A stretch of 64,000 nucleotides of DNA, taken from Hexactinellida sp. DTS-2022. Taxonomy: Eukaryota > Porifera > Hexactinellida. Shown here in pieces: positions 1,701 to 53,001 of this stretch. The DNA lies in the NCBI GenBank assembly GCA_028753945.1, contig JAPNXP010000002.1:5642001-5706000 (forward strand). The letters are read 5' to 3'. The translations under genes and the position numbers were made by a program. The notes under the pieces were generated by a model. That model was given only the letters and a program-made list of their open reading frames with translations. It was not told where the DNA came from and made no database searches. The stretch's first letter is position 1. Every line of letters begins with the position of its first letter.

Positions 1701-2690
1701 GGTTAAGGTATACTCTAGAGCACTGCTACCAAAAGTAATTACCCGAATTAATTAAATTTTTTACAGCGGATAGACTTCATCTTCAGGATGCCAAAAATAC
1801 AATAATATTGGCAAATATAATAAGAGAGGAAAATCTTTTTTTAATTTTACCATATTTGCGGAATAGATCAATCAGCAAAGATGAACAAGACAAATAATAT
1901 TATTGATAAATGTGTTTAGCTGGATGTAATATAACTTTTGAGTGCAGGAATTGTGAATATCTACATTTACTGGTTTTCAAATACTTTAATGTGATGTCGA
2001 ATTTCCAATGAAGATTTACCTGATCCAAAATTGCAAATACACATGAACTATTCATAATAGAGTAAATCGCTGCACTGATAAGTTGTATCTTTACGAGATT
2101 TCTCCGAAACCGTTGAGTTTTTAATTCCACGACCAAAATTGACAAAAAGATTCCTATTATTTTTACAGTTTGACACACTTTGGTCACCTCAATTTAGGAA
2201 TAATTGCTGTAATTTTTTTTTCAAAAGCCGCTATCTCAAAACTAACATTTTCAGAATTGCGGAAGAAGTCATTTTGTCAATTTTGGTCGTAGAATCAAAA
2301 ACTCAACGGTTTCGGAGAGATCTCGTAAAGATACAACTTTTCACTGCTGCGATTTACCCTAATATGAATAGTTCATCTGTTTTTTGCATTTTGGATAAGG
2401 AAATCTTCATTTGAAAATCGACATCACATAAAAGTATTTGAAATCCAGAAAAATGTAGATATTCACAATTCCTGTACTCAAAGGTTATATTACATCCAGC
2501 TAAACACATTTTATCAATAATATTCTTGGTATTGTTTATCTTTTCTCTTTGATCTATTCCGAAAAAATGGTTAAATTTAAAAAAAGATTTTTCCTCTATT
2601 AGTTTATTTGCCAATATTTTTGTATTTTTGGCATCCTGAGGATGAAGTAAATCCGCTGTAAAAAAATTAATACAGCGGATTTACTTCACG
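1701..2690. mobile_element. Fold-back pair of F1 MITE halves
   Basis: The left half (1701 to about 2138) is family F1 in reverse orientation, starting after TTAA at 1697-1700 with GGTTAAGGTATACTCTA. The right half (about 2139-2671) is F1 in forward orientation. The two arms are inverted copies of the same sequence. The right half lacks the normal outer end and instead closes with a palindrome at about 2644-2689, in which GAAGTAAATCCGCTGT is repeated in inverse. An 80-codon frame starting MANKLIEEKSFFKF on the minus strand (2354-2614) recurs in other F1 copies, but is probably just repeat sequence. Confidence 0.7.
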
Positions 2691-3619
2691 TTCTATAGAA
2701 ACTGGCCATATTTAACTTTGTGACTTCTTAAATTAAGGATGCTTTCCGCCATGAATGTATTAGCGAATGGGTGGTTTCCACAATATTTTGAATATTGCAT
2801 TGAAGCTCTCTATACTAGACTGTAATTACATAACGAAGCATGTAATCACCACTGTATATCTTCCTTTGTTCTATTTTCGGAATTATTTTGGATAACATTG
2901 TTCAACGCTTCCTATCTCGGTAATACTATCGATATCAAAGCGTGACCACATTTCTAGGAAACTATGAAAGCAAAAGTTCTATTAATTAATGTCTATAATC
3001 AACAGTATTAGATCTACAAATTTGACCATTTTCAGACTGATTAGATCATAGAAAGGTATTCTAGAATTAAAACTCCCGTAAATCCGTGAAATTCGTTAAA
3101 ATTTCCAATTTTATGCCTTTTTATCTGTCACTGAACAGGAACCAAATCTTAGTTCTGTTCAATAAAGGTAAAATATGTTGGTTACAGTGTATACCAATAT
3201 ACATAAAAATTTCATTGAGATAAATTCAATACTTTTTCTAAAATCTTGGTTGAAAGCTCCAAAAATCGGGAATTGAGCTATCGACGCTCAAAGTTTTTCC
3301 CTGCAAATTCAATTAGAACTAATCTATTACAATGTGTTTCATCCCAGGATGTATTCATCAGTTAAGCTCACATTCAAATAAACATTGTATTTTGAATAAT
3401 GTGTAGGTTTGGAAATGAATTGGAACTGTCAATAGCAGTCCAAGTTCTTTTGGAACACTTTTTAAAGCAAAATCAAATTCAATACTATCTGAAATTGTTA
3501 TTTTTGTCATTATTCATTTCAGTTTAGCTTTGGTTATATGTACTTAGTCCATAGTGTATAAGATTATAAGAATAATGCTTATGAATTTGTATATTGTAGT
3601 TCATTTGACAAAAAGATAT
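2691..3619. other. Unassigned AT-rich region
   Basis: There are no frames with protein-like composition and no inverted termini that I could pair. It looks like decayed intergenic or old repeat sequence. Confidence 0.4.
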
Positions 3620-3692
3620 GCCAAGTTTGGGGTTCGAACCATGGAACATTGAATACTGTCCGATATGCTACCAACTGAACTACTGGAACTTC
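3620..3692 (-). repeat. tRNA-like sequence, probable SINE head or tRNA pseudogene
   Basis: On the minus strand there is an A-box-like TAGTTCAGTTGGTAGC (about 3665-3680) followed at near-normal tRNA spacing by a perfect B-box core GGTTCGAACCC (about 3629-3640). The 5' and 3' flanks do not pair into a seven-base acceptor stem and the anticodon arm is poor, so it is not a functional tRNA. An internal pol III promoter of this kind is typical of tRNA-derived SINEs. I saw no second copy in the window. Confidence 0.5.
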
Positions 3693-4844
3693 TAAATATT
3701 AGAGAATGTATTCTATTCCATATAAATGGAATATAGAATATATACATGTATATAAATGTGAATAAATGTACATACACATTCATTTAACGCTGGTTCCGTC
3801 CATTTGCATGGAGTGAGTATATACAACACACTACTCGTTTATCCTAGTAAGCCCATATAAGGAGTATATATGTAAGCTATTTTAAGACTACTAGTGCTCT
3901 ATTATAAGGCTTCTAAGCACTGATTTCTTTTGAAATTCTTAATTAACTTATCTTTGAAGTCCTGTGGAGAGTTGACCACAAAGTTCTCTTACCCTTGACT
4001 CTCGGATCTCAAGCTGAGTTTTGGTGTTTGGTTCATCGAGTCTTTTTCTTTTGCATCGTACAACAAGCGACTCCATTTTGGTAGGTTTGGTTGAGTGGTA
4101 CGCTCCGGAAAAGTTCTATCTAATTGGGGAACTTTGAATGTGACTCTATGTCTTATTTCTGAAAATGGTCTAAACATACATAGACCACCTTCAGGACACC
4201 AATATCCTCGCTACGAAGAGCTCAAGTCCAGGCATGATTCAGGATTGGTGGATTTTGGTGCATCTTGAAAGGAATTTGGTCATCCAGATTGTAGTTGCTC
4301 TTGTATCCGGGGACAGAACATGAGTTAGGCATGAATGGAAGCTAAATTAATAAAATACTTGAGCGAAAATAAAAGAATGAGATAGTACGTCAATGGAAGA
4401 GTTTAGAATAAAATCTGATCAATAGTTGTATATATTTCAAGACTAGTTCTAATAAAGGTGGTTGATTATTAATATTATGGTTGAAATTAAATATTGTAGT
4501 TTGATGAATATTACCATCTTCTCTTTCATACTTGGTCCATATTTTATAGGTTAAAAGTTAGGCCATATATAGAGCATAATATGGTCAATCAAAATTTCAG
4601 GACACTTGTCTCGACTTTTCTTAGATTTTCATGGTATTTCGAGCGGATTAGGCCATAAAATTTGAAGAATTCATCGAAATGCTTAGACAACAAGACAAAT
4701 CACCGATATATTCACAAACTATACGAGAGTAAACATTCAACTTGATATCTGGTGTATAAACCTCTGGATGAATGTTGGCGCAACCTCACTTTGTGAGTTT
4801 TATCCATTCTTTTGAAGGGTTTCGTCAAAGTTAAAGTTAATATA
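3693..4844. other. Unassigned AT-rich region
   Basis: It contains TATA-rich simple sequence near 3710-3780. The rest has no coding signal and no repeat boundary that I can identify. Confidence 0.4.
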
Positions 4845-44957: not shown

Positions 44958-44959
44958 TA

Positions 44960-47900
44960 GGCCGGATCAAGAAAAGTACAATTGGTCGGATCAACTTCTA
45001 CCTAAGGGAAAAGTTGCCTTTACTCCTTTCTAGGATTATAAGAAATTTAGATCCGAAAAATATATTGATTTGACCCTTGCGGTTTAATAGTTTTGCTGTG
45101 TCACTTTCACATAATTGACCTTAAATCCTCCGAATTTTCAAAATCCTTTGACTTAGCCCCTTTAAATGTATTAATTAGTAATAGTAAGTCGCCAATTTGC
45201 TGTCGAATAGTATATAAAGCTAATCTCCATCTATTAGGATACTAAAGTTATGAAGAATTTCTTTGTATTTTCGATCATACCCTAATAATATCACCCCCCC
45301 CCCCCCCCCTCCTTCCCTCCTTCTTCCCCAAATTTGAAAATGCATAACACTAGCTTTATAATTGTCAAACATAGTTGATTTCTGTGTCTAAATCTAAATT
45401 CATCATTAAATTGGTTTAAAGATATTTCATACACATTCCTTAACCCATGCATTTAACTTAGTTACCATTTATCTAATATGGAATTTATGGTTAATTATTG
45501 TATCTTCATAAATACTCTGATCAGATCAACCCTTTAGAGTATTTTTATTCCTATAATTTATTGATCTTTGAATATGGCAGAATACACGCGTGGTAAAATA
45601 TTTCATCCTGTGTTCGGTTACCCTGGACCTATACCAGAAAATCAACTCCCAACAAAACTAGATCTGTATAATCATTACAGAATGCTTAGAAATGAAAATT
45701 CGAAATTCACTAGAGACGATATTGCGAAAGAACTTACACAAATAATAGTGCGCATCTATGAAAAGTCTTCTATACCAACAATATCTGAGATCAAAATAAA
45801 ACAATACATCAATTCTGGTATTATTGAGAGAGCTAAATACCACGGAAAAAGTATCCAAAACAAGCAACAACCTGACCGTGTCCAACCTATAATTTCCGAA
45901 TTCAATGTTCTGTTCGACGTCTCGAGTTGTAAATGCCCGATTGAAGAAGGCAAATGTTTTTGCTCTTTCGATAAAAAGATACCAAGCCGCGAGTGGCCAT
46001 TTCTCCTTGATCAGCGAAACGCTAGAAAATTATTTTTATCCAGCTTGGATCGCTCGACCACCTCCAAAAATATTGCTGCTCAAAAGAGAAAAGAGGCACA
46101 ATATGAAAGAGAAGAAAGCGAACTGAAGAGACAACAACCTGATCAACCTTCGCAGGAATTTTTAGAATGTGACCTTGAAGAGTTTGAATCTTACGACCCA
46201 AATACATCGAATAATCACAAGCATACACGTAATCATAATCAATTGCGAAATTTAGCCATAATGTGTGATAGATATCAGATAAGCGATCGCGCAGGCGCAG
46301 CTATAGCCAACGCAGTACTCCAGGATTACGGTATTATCACACCAGATGAAAATAGTCTAATTATTGATAGAAACAAACTACGTAGATCGAGATTTTCAGA
46401 AGGAAGGGTTCTAGCTAACGAAGCTCACGAGAATATCACGGATATCACTGCGATTTATTTTGATGGCCGTAAAGATCAAACTCGAGTGATGGTAGAGAGA
46501 GAGGATGGAAATCTGCACCAGGATACTGTGAATGAAGAACATTACACCGTCTTATCTGAACCAGGAAATCAGTATATTGCCCATGTAACACCTAGTTCTG
46601 GTAAATCAAAAGATATAGCAAGGGAATTGGTTGATCTTTGCAGGGAGCGGAATTCAGATTTAAAGGCTGTTGGAGCTGATGGAGCTCGAGTAAACACTGG
46701 AATCCATAATGGATGTATTAGACTCCTTGAACTAGAGTTCTCAAAACCACTCCACTGGTTTATTTGCCAATTACACAGTAATGAACTTCCATTGAGGCAT
46801 CTCTTTGAGAGAATAGATGGGAAAACCAGTGGACCCAATAGTTTTAAAGGAGTAATTGGAAAAGAACTTAATTCTGATTTTGCTAGCTAGCCAATCGCGG
46901 TTTATAATCCTATATGCGGTAAAAGTCAGTACATCAATTGCGAGATTCTCAACAATTTAAGTACAGATCAGAAATATCTATATAATATATGTCATGCAGT
47001 TCAGTCTGGTAACTGCTCATCTGAACTTGCATCGATGCAACCTGGCCCTATACATCATGCTAGATGGACAACCTTAGCCAATAGGTTACTTCGATCTTAC
47101 ATTTCAACGATCCATCCTACACCTGAATTATCCCGAATTGTCTATTTTATCGTCAATTACTATGCACCAGTTTGGTTTAGAATTAAGAGTAATTCTATAT
47201 GCACAGATGGACCTAGAAACCTATTATATGCAATATCTTTACTGCGAGAGTTGCCGGACTACGATCAAGAAGTAGTTTGTGATGTGCTACAGAGAAATGC
47301 ATATTTTTGTCATCCAGAAAACCTTCTGTTATCGATGCTTGCAGACAATGATGTGCAAATTAGACAAAAGGCAGTCAACACTATTTTAGATATCCGCACC
47401 AACAATTCATCATTTGGACAGAATGAAATTCGCCCATTTAAGCTTCGGTTCACTGCTGAAACATACGTGGATATGATTGATTGGGAAACATCTCTTATCA
47501 CAGAACCGCCTTTGACAAAACACCTCTCAAAAGAAGTACTACTTAATAGTGTGTATACTCCTATAGAAATACCAGGATATCCATGCCATACACAAGCTGT
47601 TGAAAGAACTATTCAACTGGTTACAAAAGCTTCATCATCAGTAACAGGGGAAGAGGCGAGACATGGATTAATTCTTACAAAGCTAACCTCGAGAGAACAA
47701 ATGCCTGCTTTTGAGTCAAAAAAAGATTATACATGTTAAATTAACTGCATATAATATAATTGAACCTTGCTTTATTCAACAACTGATCAAAAAGCTAGTG
47801 TTATGCATTTTCAAATTTTGGGAAAGAATGAGGGAAGGAGGGGGGGGGGGGGGTGATATTATTAGGGTATGATCGAAAATACAAAGAATTTCTTCATAAC

Positions 47901-48187
47901 TTTAGTATCCTAATAGATGGAGATTAGCTTTATATACTATTCGACAGCAAATTGGCGACTTACTATTACTAATTAATACATTTAAAGGGGCTAAGTCAAA
48001 AGATTTTGAAAATTCGGAGGATTTAAGGTCAATTATGTGAAAGTGACACATCAAAACTATTAAACCGCAAGGGTCAAATCAATATATTTTTCGGATCTAA
48101 ATTTCTTATAATCCTAGAAAGGAGTAAAGGCAACTTTTCCCTTAGGTAGAAGTTGATCCGACCAATTGTACTTTTCTTGATCCGGCC
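44960..48187 (+). mobile_element. Element A: TIR transposon with ~395-bp inverted repeats
   Basis: The left TIR (44960 to about 45354) and right TIR (about 47790-48187) are near-perfect inverted copies, starting GGCCGGATCAAG and closing inward with AGCTAGTGTTATGC-type sequence. TA lies on both sides (44958-44959 and 48188-48189). Each TIR holds a long C- or G-run near its inner end (about 45293-45310 and 47840-47855). Between the TIRs lies a single gene (45574-47739). One gene, long TIRs and a TA target make a plausible complete DNA transposon. I cannot place it in a named superfamily. Confidence 0.8.
45574..47739 (+). pseudogene. Element A gene: RNase H-like transposase candidate, one stop codon
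   Basis: ATG at 45574 (MAEYTRGKIFHPVFGYPGPI). One frame runs 721 codons to TAA at 47737-47739, interrupted only by TAG at 46888-46890 (codon 439). Visible blocks: two Cys clusters (CKCPIEEGKCFC, about residues 122-133), a charged stretch, AIYFDGRKDQT (about residue 295), AVGADGARVNTG (about 366-377), WFICQLHSNELPLRHLF (about 393-409), and PCHTQAVERTIQLVTKASS near the C-terminus (about 670-688). The two Asp blocks plus a C/H block and a late Glu are the kind of pattern found in RNase H-fold transposases such as hAT, but this assignment is inference. I recall close relatives as repeated uncharacterized proteins in arthropods and cnidarians. The near-intact frame suggests recent activity; it could also be a read-through stop. 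Confidence 0.7.
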
Positions 48188-48530
48188 TAGTGATTAATGC
48201 TCTAATATGTATAATATGTCTACACTAGATGGGATACAGTATGAATATACTAATAATATGACAATTGAGTTGAATTACACTGGTCTACAACATTTTCTTG
48301 GCTAATAAGTTGAGACTATTTCTTGGGTATATTGGGGTCACTGAGTTCGAAAATGGGACTAATTCCTGTCAATTGGCTCTACTTTTTAAAATATTGTAAA
48401 TTTTGTGTTTTTCAATATCCGTAAATTTGTGTTCACTGATACTATATAGTATGTATGTATTGCCTTATAACTAGAATTGAACGGACGTAATAAGCAGATA
48501 ATTTAAGAAATAATATTATCTGAATACTTA

Positions 48531-51126
48531 TCAATCATGAACGAACGTTCTCTTATACGATTTCCTCTTGTGAGGTTCCTGGGCGCAATCACGCATAAGG
48601 ATCCAGCAGTAATCTGACAACATGTGAGCGTCCCATCGTCCTTGGTACCGTTCCTCCATAGTCCTGATGTCTTGGTGGAATCGCTCGCCCTGTTCTTCGC
48701 TTAAATCACCAAGATTTTCAGGGAATCTCTCTAAATGGCTATAGAGGTAGTGAAGTTTTATGCTCATTCTGGTTCCCAGACTGTGGAAGTTCTTGAGCAT
48801 GTCTTCGACCAGATTCTGGTAGTTAGCTACTTTGGTGTTGCCTAAAAATCCCTTTACAACATCGACAAAGGAATACCACGCGGCAGCCTCAACCCCAGTC
48901 ATATGTGAAGCGAAATCTTCATCTTTTATCAGTTTTCTGATTTGTGGCCCATCAAAAATTCCTGCCTTAAGTTTTTCGCTACTCAGACCAGGAAACACTG
49001 AGCAGAGGTAGCTGAAACAGGTACCATCTTTGTTCAATGCCTTTACGAATTGTTTCATCAGCCCCAACTTGATATGGAGTGGGGGTAGGATTATACGGTC
49101 ACGACTAACTAGGGGCTCGTTAACAATATTCTTTTCCCCGACGGAGAGCTCTTGACGAACGGGCCAGTTCTTCTTTTCCCAGTGCACCTCATCCGCTCTG
49201 CTGTCCCACAAACAAAGAAAGCATGGGTATTTAGTGTAACCACTTTGCTGTCCTAACAGAATGTTGACCATCTTCAAGTCTACACACGCGATCCAGTTAT
49301 GTTCATCATAACACAGCTTTTGTAGGACCATCTTTATAGTTGCGTAGTGCTCTTTCAAGATTACTGAATGGCCGATTGGAACAGAGGCAAACTTGTTACC
49401 GTTATGCAGCAACACACACTTTAGACTCCGTTTAGAGCTGTCGATAAATAAACGCCACTCATTCGGATTGTATTGTGACAGTCCTATTGCTGAGAGAAGT
49501 CCTGGGATGTTATTACAAAACACGAAATCGCCTTCTTCACTGAAATAGCGAATAAGTTCTTCGTCTCTGCGTCGGTAATAAGTTATCCTGGCTTCATTGT
49601 GGAGAACATGGTGTTCACTGAGACGGGAAGCCAGGATCTCTGAAGCATCTTTCGATAGGCCTAAGTCTCTCACTAAGTCGTTGAGCTGCCCCTGGGTGAA
49701 AGGCTCCGCTTTAGTTATTTGTAAAGACTCGATACAGCTATTGTTGCTGTAAGTGCTGTCCGACGAATCATCAATTGCCTCATTCGCAGTATCAAGAACT
49801 TGATCAGGAAAGTACTTAAAAATAGGCACCTGAATTTCGCTGCAATGTGGAATTGGCCGTCTTGCAGAATCGATGTCAGGATATTGCCACGAATTCTTTT
49901 TCTGTCGGTTCCATCCAGACATGTTAAGGCTCGACCCACACCTTCACTAATAATGTCCCTATCAAATCCAAACATATATCAGTTTTAGCCCTATCTATAC
50001 TGCTAATAAATCCGCAATCAGAATTGAATTCGAATAATATTCACTCAAGTGATTGACTATAGTTCCATATTGCGTAATATTAAATTCCTATACCCGATGA
50101 TTTTTTAACCACCCAAATTTTTTTTAAAGTATTGATGATTAAGAGTTGTTCAGCATTTTGATATTATCTATGTATACTAACAAAGAGCTGCTAGCACTTA
50201 GATGTGAAATAGTATTCTCAATATTGTTCAGTAATGTTTCAAATTGAAACTAATCAAATTTCAATGATTATTTTGCATTTTTCTGATTCAAACACTTACA
50301 ACAATTAATTTTATTTATTGTGAATAACGTAACTGCTAGCAGTCCTTGATCTATGTATGATTTATATGTCTGAAGTCTAAAATTACTAAATACATTTAAG
50401 AATTTTTCTATAAACAGGTGGTGGCATGTGTAGGTTTGGAGTTTGGAGAAAAATAATTGATTATTTATATTATAATACAGTTTAACTATATATATACACT
50501 CCATTCAGTAGGAATCTTAAATAGTGGTTATATAACAATGTTGACTAAGTATTATGCACTGGTTTAATCTTAAGTTATGTAGTATTTAGCAATAAAAATT
50601 AGATAAATCCGCTATAAACTGTGACGAAATCCCGACCAAATTTTGTATTACGTCAGTGGCGCAAAGTGGCGCAAGGTGGTGTATTTCCTAAAGTATTTGG
50701 AATTTCGGGATGAAAATTTCTGTGAATAAACTCCATCTATAGACCATGCGGAATATGCAATCATATACAATTAATCAATGTTCTGGGCCTCCGTCCTGAA
50801 GGTGTGGGTCGAGCCTTAACCATGCAGAAGTAACAGTCATCGTGATGGTTCTTGGGCTCTCGCCAAACCATTGGAACACCGAACTTCATGGATTTGGCTT
50901 TTCCTTGGGTCCATAAGCGGAGGGTTTCTGTACAATACTTGCACACTTTGTGAGGGCTCCATGACTTATCTTGATCGCCTAACTTCATACCAAAGTAGGC
51001 CTGATAAGCTTTTTTGGTGACATCTCTAACATTAAAACGATATTCCTTTGCCATATATTCACCACAAATATAGCAAAAGACATCAGGATCATTGAGGCAA
51101 CAACGTCTAATGCGCTTTGAATCCAT
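48531..51126 (-). pseudogene. Element B gene: 567-codon uncharacterized family, split by a TTAA insert
   Basis: The first part starts at ATG 51126-51124 (MDSKRIRRCCLNDPDVFCYI) and reads 103 codons to CYFCMV at 50818. The second part runs from 49923 to the stop at 48531-48533. The insert at 49928-50815 with one TTAA lies between them; taking it out joins the parts in frame as CMV-N-MSGWNRQKK. Paired cysteines (FCYICG, VCKYC, CYFC) suggest an N-terminal zinc-binding module not unlike a ZAD domain. The C-terminal half holds LPPLHIKLGLMKQFVKAL, AGIFDGPQIRKLI, LHYLYSHLERFPENLG and EEQGERFHQDIRTMEERYQG, then WDAHMLSDYCW. I recall exactly this block order from many multi-copy arthropod and cnidarian proteins of unknown function. 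TIRs around it argue that it is a transposon protein. The catalytic chemistry is unknown. Confidence 0.75.
49928..50815. mobile_element. TTAA-bounded MITE, family F4 (888 bp), in the B gene
   Basis: The TIR of 19 bp is GGCTCGACCCACACCTTCA and its inverse, with TTAA at 49924-49927 and 50816-50819. The interior is AT-rich with no transposase. Its absence restores the host reading frame, so it transposed by precise TTAA duplication, as piggyBac and Kolobok elements do. Confidence 0.9.
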
Positions 51127-51369
51127 AAAGCTTCTAATATGCTGGAAATAGAGGGAACAAATAGTAGTAAATGTTGTAATAAACGTACAAATCGCTTATA
51201 TTTGTATTATTAACTCAAAATTTAAGGTTGTGTAATATCTAGTAAACTAGAGCCAAATCAGCAAAACTAATATTATTTTCGGATTAAGCAACCCCGAAAT
51301 ACCCTAAAACCGCTCCAACAATCTGAGCCAAGAGACAAAAAAATATTTTTGTTGGCATGTGTTATATAT

Positions 51370-51797
51370 TAATCTTTTGATGATGCATAAAAAAATTAAA
51401 AAAATATGCAAATTAGAATTTAAGGATGCTTCGGGTGAGATTTTTGTTCTTTTAGTGACAAAATTGTAATGCGAGTTTATTCTGTGAAATGAAGCTAATA
51501 TATCATTAAATTATGTGAGAAGTGAATTTTTTTGAAAAAATATTCTACAAAGTCTTCAAAATGTCAATTTGGTGACGTCATTGTTGATGATGTTTCTTTT
51601 TTATTATCCCAATTGACATTCCTTGGTTTTATATGTGCCTTATCTTGCACTTATATACTTTATGTATATAAACTAACATTAATATGCACAAATATCTCAA
51701 TGATTAGCATATATTGCCAAAACCAGTTGATAATGGGCTAGAAATTCTGATCTGCATATTTTTTAATTTTTGTATGCATCATCAACAGATTAATTGA
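51370..51797. repeat. Fold-back repeat near the right end of element B
   Basis: The stretch AATCTTTTGATGATGCAT (about 51371) is inversely repeated as ATGCATCATCAACAGATT (about 51776), each followed inward by an AT-rich arm ending AGAATT or AATTCT. Between the arms lies a 320-bp sequence bounded on the left by TTAA and starting GGATGCTTCGGGTGA (51424). Confidence 0.6.
51424..51741 (+). mobile_element. F5 repeat (GGATGCTTCGGGTGA end), copy 1
   Basis: TTAA is at 51420-51423. The copy runs to GATAATGGGC and is inversely repeated at 52688-52997. It sits inside the fold-back of element B. Confidence 0.6.
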
Positions 51798-52199
51798 CTA
51801 TATTATATTATTCAACTCAATTGTCATATATATTAGTTTTTTCATACGGTATCCCAACTAGTATAGACTTATTATACATATTAGAGCATTAATCACTACG
51901 TAAGCCATGATTTAATCACTGATAATGATGTCCCAAAAGAAAGCGGACTCTATTAATACGACAGAAACTTGCATAGAATACGATTTAATCAAGTAGTTTG
52001 TTTACTATGATGTTTCAATACATATTTAGTATATAGTATGAAACTTATCTAGTATATTTAAACTAAATCTGTTTGTAATACGGACAAATTTAATAGACAT
52101 ATGCATTTCACAATCAAAAAACTTCAGCCTTCGATTACTCAATTGTAGTTTTTTTGACATATCCCGAATTTTATCTAATATAGTTCATAAGGGATTGCT

Positions 52200-52687
52200 T
52201 TCAAAAATTCAGATATAGTTCTTAATAATATAATGATCATTTTGCAAGCTCATTGAAGCAAACAAACGATTAGTGTAGGAGTAGAGACCAAGCAAGGAGC
52301 AAAAATACCACTTTCTGGCCTCCATTTTGACGAATTCTAGGATTCGTAAGTTAAGAATTGGTTAAACTTGGGATAGGCGTCTGGTGAGCTAAGCAAATGT
52401 AGTGCTAATAGTACTGATCAATCATACAAATTTTTGGAGCTATATCGACTATACTTTACAAGAATTAATTCAGTGAATTCTAATAAAACAGTATTACCCC
52501 TATGGGGAGGCATTTCCTAAAGAATTTATTGCTACTCGAAAAATAGTTTGGACTTAGATATGCTGTATGCATTTTAAGCTTAGTTATGCAATTACAGAGC
52601 AGATTGGAGAATTACACTTCAATATCTACAAAGACGCTAAAACCACCCATACCGCTAATACATTTTTCACCCTAAGCACCCTTAATG
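52200..52687 (+). repeat. Repeat D, copy 2 (TTAA-type end)
   Basis: It is colinear with 36541-37015. The right end reads CACCCTAAGCACCC before TTAA (52684-52687), a variant of the F5 end, so D and F5 are probably related families. Confidence 0.6.
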
Positions 52688-52997
52688 CCCATTATCAACT
52701 GGTTTTGGCAATATATGCTAACCACAGAGATATTGTGCATATTAATGTTAGTATATATACATAAAGTATATAAGTGCACGATATAGTACATATAAAACCA
52801 AGGAATGTCAATTGAGATAATAAAAAATCTACATCATCAATAATGACTTCACCAAATTGACATTTTGAAGACTTTGCAGAATATTTTTTTATAAATTTCA
52901 CTTCTCACATATTTTTATGATACATTAGCTACATTTCACAGTATCAACTCGCATTTTAATTTTGTCACAAAAACCCTAAATTTCACCCGAAGCATCC
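52688..52997 (-). mobile_element. F5 repeat, copy 2, inverted
   Basis: This is the inverse of 51424-51741, ending TCACCCGAAGCATCC before TTAA (52998-53001). The pair forms arms of about 310 bp around 0.95 kb. Confidence 0.65.
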
Positions 52998-53001
52998 TTA
53001 A

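Follow-up and report, generated by a model that had tools for sequence, protein, structure and literature searches.

A probable Chapaev3 DNA transposon in a hexactinellid sponge genome and the origin of the inverted repeats around its transposase gene

In the sections of PMC4079192 drawn on here, Chapaev3 DNA transposons are characterized by target site duplications (TSDs) of TWA (W, A or T) located between A and T and by a transposase with the motifs C(2)C, LH and H(4)H, and CAC/GTG ends are given for Chapaev at large. Most Chapaev3 elements have a single open reading frame (ORF), Merrow and Garfield have two exons, and Garfield_BM comprises 2,289 bp and encodes 556 aa (same sections of PMC4079192). 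Chapaev3 is grouped with Transib and RAG1 and has an N-terminal complex zinc finger termed 'Chapa' according to the consulted part of PMC4411706, while the wider clade, with shared motifs, is named CMCT in the part of PMC12730594 considered here, where CA..TG ends and TSDs of 2-5 bp are described as common. Here, a minus-strand gene was analysed in a 64,000-nucleotide stretch of the genome of Hexactinellida sp. DTS-2022 (assembly GCA_028753945.1, contig JAPNXP010000002.1, positions 5,642,001 to 5,706,000), hereafter the window, to which all coordinates refer. With a probability of about 95%, this gene encodes the transposase of a DNA transposon of the Chapaev3 group, within the CMC, or CMCT/Transib-RAG1, clade; the group itself is already described, and the element is a further member of it.

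Ends, target site and classification of the element

The Chapaev3 element occupies positions 48278-51361 on the minus strand and has a length of 3084 bp including a nested miniature inverted-repeat transposable element (MITE). Its termini are CACATGCC... at the side 5′ of the gene and ...GACCAGTG at the opposite side, and it is flanked by two TSD copies TTA (TAA on the gene strand) at 48275-48277 and 51362-51364. The ends were set by comparing copies within and between three subfamilies, which resulted in the pattern A-TWA|CAC...GTG|TWA-T. A complete pair of ends was recovered from 9 of the 20 fetched loci and, counting the window copy, from 10 of 21. In all ten loci the termini were CAC...GTG, the two TWA copies were identical (six TAA and four TTA on the gene strand) and the bases outside of them were A before and T after. 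A TSD of 1 bp, which had been considered for the first end alignment, was dropped because the boundary TWA|CAC gives identical TSD copies in every case. Excluded from the end count were L043, which has an altered 5′ end (TTCACAGG) without the usual base pattern, the truncated L041, and L047, L048, L049 and L051 with one end found each; L050, L052, L054, L056 and L057 lay outside the count since their ends were not sought. The flanks of L047 are also those of L048, and the two probably represent a single site that was duplicated.

Two copies of subfamily C are 99.7% alike but differ in flanks and TSDs and were therefore inserted independently. For the subfamily C copy at L058, the joined flanks match C9:619133-619400 at 93% over 269 of 300 bases and the element is absent there; base-level comparison revealed a single TTA in this empty site. 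For L046 no empty site is shown, the flank search having given repeats on one side only. Insertion of Chapaev3 at ATWAT with duplication of TWA is thus shown by the ends together with one empty site. Several further stretches related to the L058 flanks and without insertion exist, and by eye the insertion site resembles what we take to be a P-element/THAP-type transposase reading frame.

TSD, ends, motifs and sizes all agree with the description in the consulted sections of PMC4079192, and the element was therefore assigned to Chapaev3. The preliminary description of this locus had regarded the gene as a candidate transposase of an undescribed or unassigned group and had proposed a search for an empty site; the transposase role is borne out by the element's own termini, TSDs, the one empty site found and a predicted RAG1/Transib-like fold, whereas the group matches Chapaev3. 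Several points speak against the assignment. It was made by comparison with published descriptions, the ends and TSDs come from a single genome, and 11 of the 21 gene loci contribute no complete pair, being truncated or altered, having a single end found, or lying outside the end search. Moreover, the catalytic E is either E514 or E517, and no relative was confirmed in scans of viral_contigs and genome_contigs. The reliance on published descriptions, as well as the commonness of CA..TG ends and 2-5 bp TSDs in CMCT (PMC12730594, part considered), would also suit a CMC-type transposase outside Chapaev3, i.e. an as yet unnamed sister lineage that has TSD and ends in common with it. Such a lineage is improbable, as the TWA TSD in A/T context, the length of 2.2 kb, the 567 aa, the single ORF and the combination of C(2)C, LH and H(4)H all fit published Chapaev3 in the sections of PMC4079192 used. 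PIF/Harbinger was considered for the TWA TSD and rejected on account of the CAC termini, no Harbinger profile being listed, and the RAG1-like predicted fold.

Origin of the 90-bp inverted repeats

For the region 48190-51896 the preliminary description had proposed an undescribed transposon with 90-bp terminal inverted repeats (TIRs; GTGATTAATGC...) and a TA TSD, carrying the gene. The minus-strand gene does lie between two inverted repeats: self-comparison within the window gave an inverted pair at 48188-48275 and 51810-51898 (89 bp, 92%, E 9e-30), and TA adjoins each arm. The repeats are, however, not the bounds of the gene's element, which has its own ends and TSD, and a transposon delimited by them is very improbable in view of their distribution. 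The 112-Mb genome (18 contigs) was searched with 48188-51898 as query and 40 of 486 candidates were scored, so that the counts are lower bounds. The query resolves into three unrelated repeats, namely the gene part (query positions 87-1740 and 2629-3178) with at least six further copies, 91-99% identical and without the 90-bp arms, a separate repeat in the middle 0.9 kb, and a right part (query 3233-3711) which, including the arm, is found elsewhere without the gene. For the 90-bp repeat at least 19 further matches were obtained, 19 of 19 overlapped by a match of the right-arm region, and none lay in the six other copies of the gene element among the matches listed. No gene copies bounded by 90-bp repeats were found in this search; instead, the repeats occur independently of the gene, which the preliminary description itself had named as evidence against its reading. 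In addition, homology was continuous through the supposed TIR end and the TA of the right arm in all four solo copies aligned, and the TA of the left arm also adjoins another element (44960-48187).

Comparison with other copies revealed that the right arm (51810-51898) lies in the interior of M, an intact TTAA-flanked MITE of 1258 bp on the plus strand (51424-52681), the TIR of which begins with GGATGCTT. The arm is likewise internal to M in at least 34 further full-length copies (40 of 276 candidates scored). One M is located inside a subfamily B transposon at L049, and the corresponding empty site is present in L045 as uninterrupted sequence with a single TTAA.

The left arm is the outer piece (48190-48277) of M*, an inverted older copy of M on the minus strand, further pieces of which are located at 51365-51419 (middle) and at 52686-53001 (inner, to its TTAA end). 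When 48186-48277, 51365-51423 and 52686-53001 were joined, the reverse complement of M was matched at 420 of the 466 positions aligned (16 gap columns), the first two bases of the joined query belonging to the neighbouring element and contributing one of the 420 matches. The left arm extends across two insertions as one single match to M, and the three pieces are one older copy split by the gene's transposon and by the opposite-facing M. The gene's transposon landed inside M*, an older TTAA MITE copy, and the second, opposite-facing M inserted there as well. The 90-bp inverted pair arose by accident from two opposite-facing M copies, because the same internal segment of M occurs in both of them. 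A MITE that occurs twice, in opposite orientations, can in this way imitate TIRs around a nested transposon.

On its outer side, M* ends exactly at the start of element A (44960-48187), a separate element with TIRs of about 400 bp that are 98% alike and with TA on both sides (44958-44959 and 48188-48189). In 400 bases beyond the far side of element A no continuation of M* was detected (best local score 20.0; mean 19.5 and maximum 28.0 in 100 shuffles). Element A contains ORFs of 440 and 234 aa, neither of which has a Pfam family above cut-off.

The transposase, its relatives and its N-terminal zinc domain

In the window, the gene is represented by two minus-strand ORFs. The ORF of 463 aa (48531-49922) is the 3′ part of the transposase and holds the D, D-CxxC, LH, H(4)H and E positions, and the ORF of 121 aa (50761-51126) consists of the 5′ part with the N-terminal zinc domain (to about 50820) followed by sequence of the nested MITE. 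The latter, overlooked when nothing besides the gene was thought to be encoded, has 888 bp (49928-50815), the TIR GGCTCGACCCACACCTTCA (GGCTCGACCCACACC) and TTAA TSDs at 49924-49927 and 50816-50819; at least 12 other near full-length copies were found in the genome, and L039, L040 and L042 carry the uninterrupted version of its site. With their TTAA flanks and TIRs starting with GG, this MITE and M resemble TTAA MITEs of a type that we presume to be piggyBac/Kolobok-like. Because the nested MITE splits the ORF, the window copy, as judged from its sequence, cannot make a whole transposase, whereas nearly identical copies at other places of the genome retain the whole ORF. The intact element L039 (2192 bp) has an ORF of 567 aa, the length initially given for the conceptual protein, and so has L040, which is 99.5% alike over 2123 bp. 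In the other elements of ten compared, the longest ORFs range from 92 to 543 aa, and decayed relatives are many (at least 87 matches, 77 of 154 candidates scored). A host gene, i.e. a transposase that was domesticated and retained for a role in the cell, as might be supposed from widespread relatives of which the named ones are only 'uncharacterized' or 'hypothetical', is extremely unlikely, given the multiple copies with TSDs at different sites, the lack of a full-length ORF in most of the ten copies and the near identity of the two copies that have one.

The protein family comprises 2663 proteins at E ≤ 0.001, and no Pfam model scored above its cut-off in 16 full-length members scanned. The Chapaev3 assignment of this large family lets 'uncharacterized' annotations be corrected. 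One member (P0093), filed under a Pseudomonadota metagenome assembly, is located on a contig of 2652 bases and is probably eukaryotic contamination. C(2)C, LH and H(4)H were each present in 98 of 98 aligned sequences. The predicted model (mean predicted local distance difference test score of 90) has a RAG1/Transib-like catalytic core, and the enzyme is predicted to share the RNase H-type fold of these two proteins. Nothing was obtained at E ≤ 0.001 in the viral structure library (best 0.03), the search of PDB sequences with the family profile gave chance-level matches only (a FYVE-domain chain, E 0.4; a proteasome subunit, E 1.1), and the NCBIfam scan gave nothing useful.

The N-terminal cysteines C18, C21, C62, C65, C98 and C101 are conserved in 90-98 of the 98 rows, the misses being mostly gaps. 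The family N-terminus (residues about 10-80 of the L009 protein) shows a weak, repeated resemblance to ZAD (zf-AD, PF07776), known from C2H2 zinc finger proteins of animals, in position and spacing of CxxC...CxxC and in weak profile and fold similarity. The profile zf-AD scored below its Pfam cut-off (28 bits) in 8 of the 16 full-length proteins, at 11.8-16.2 bits, and above it in none. Against the resemblance, the profile alignment, made in a comparison that included eleven other windows, covers 34 columns of the second half of the domain only, other zinc profiles also match family members at low score, and in P0002 FYVE (E 0.0015, residues 3-67) surpasses zf-AD (E 0.069). The model of the isolated N-terminal domain is of low confidence, and the search of PDB sequences with the N-terminal profile gave no match. 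Homology of the Chapaev3 N-terminal zinc domain to the ZAD of insect C2H2 zinc finger transcription factors and ZNF276 is therefore a tentative and rather doubtful proposal. If it were true, ZAD would have come from a RAG1-related transposase, as a part captured by host genes, or the reverse, Chapaev3 transposases might pair via a ZAD-type dimer, and ZAD transcription factors would have a testable transposon relative.

Transposition and comparison with known systems

The gene's transposon is probably of the cut-and-paste type. By analogy with RAG1 and Transib, synapsis of the two CAC ends in a paired-end complex would be followed by double-strand cleavage with hairpins on the flanks and by strand transfer three bases apart, resulting in cut-and-paste movement. 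Transib and RAG1, the latter an enzyme of our immune system, have a TSD of 5 bp, in contrast to 3 bp here, and the identity to them amounts to about 11-15% in the best rows. L039, an intact element, has no second ORF longer than 77 aa, and therefore no RAG2-like partner is seen there. Compared with the named Chapaev3 elements in the consulted sections of PMC4079192, the sponge element has its own TIR bodies, and its single ORF differs from the two exons of Merrow and Garfield. It shares with Merrow, Garfield and Conan the CAC/GTG termini and the TWA TSD between A and T, with Chapaev3 in general the motifs C(2)C, LH and H(4)H, with most Chapaev3 the one ORF, and with Garfield_BM the approximate size (2192 bp versus 2,289 bp and 567 aa versus 556 aa).
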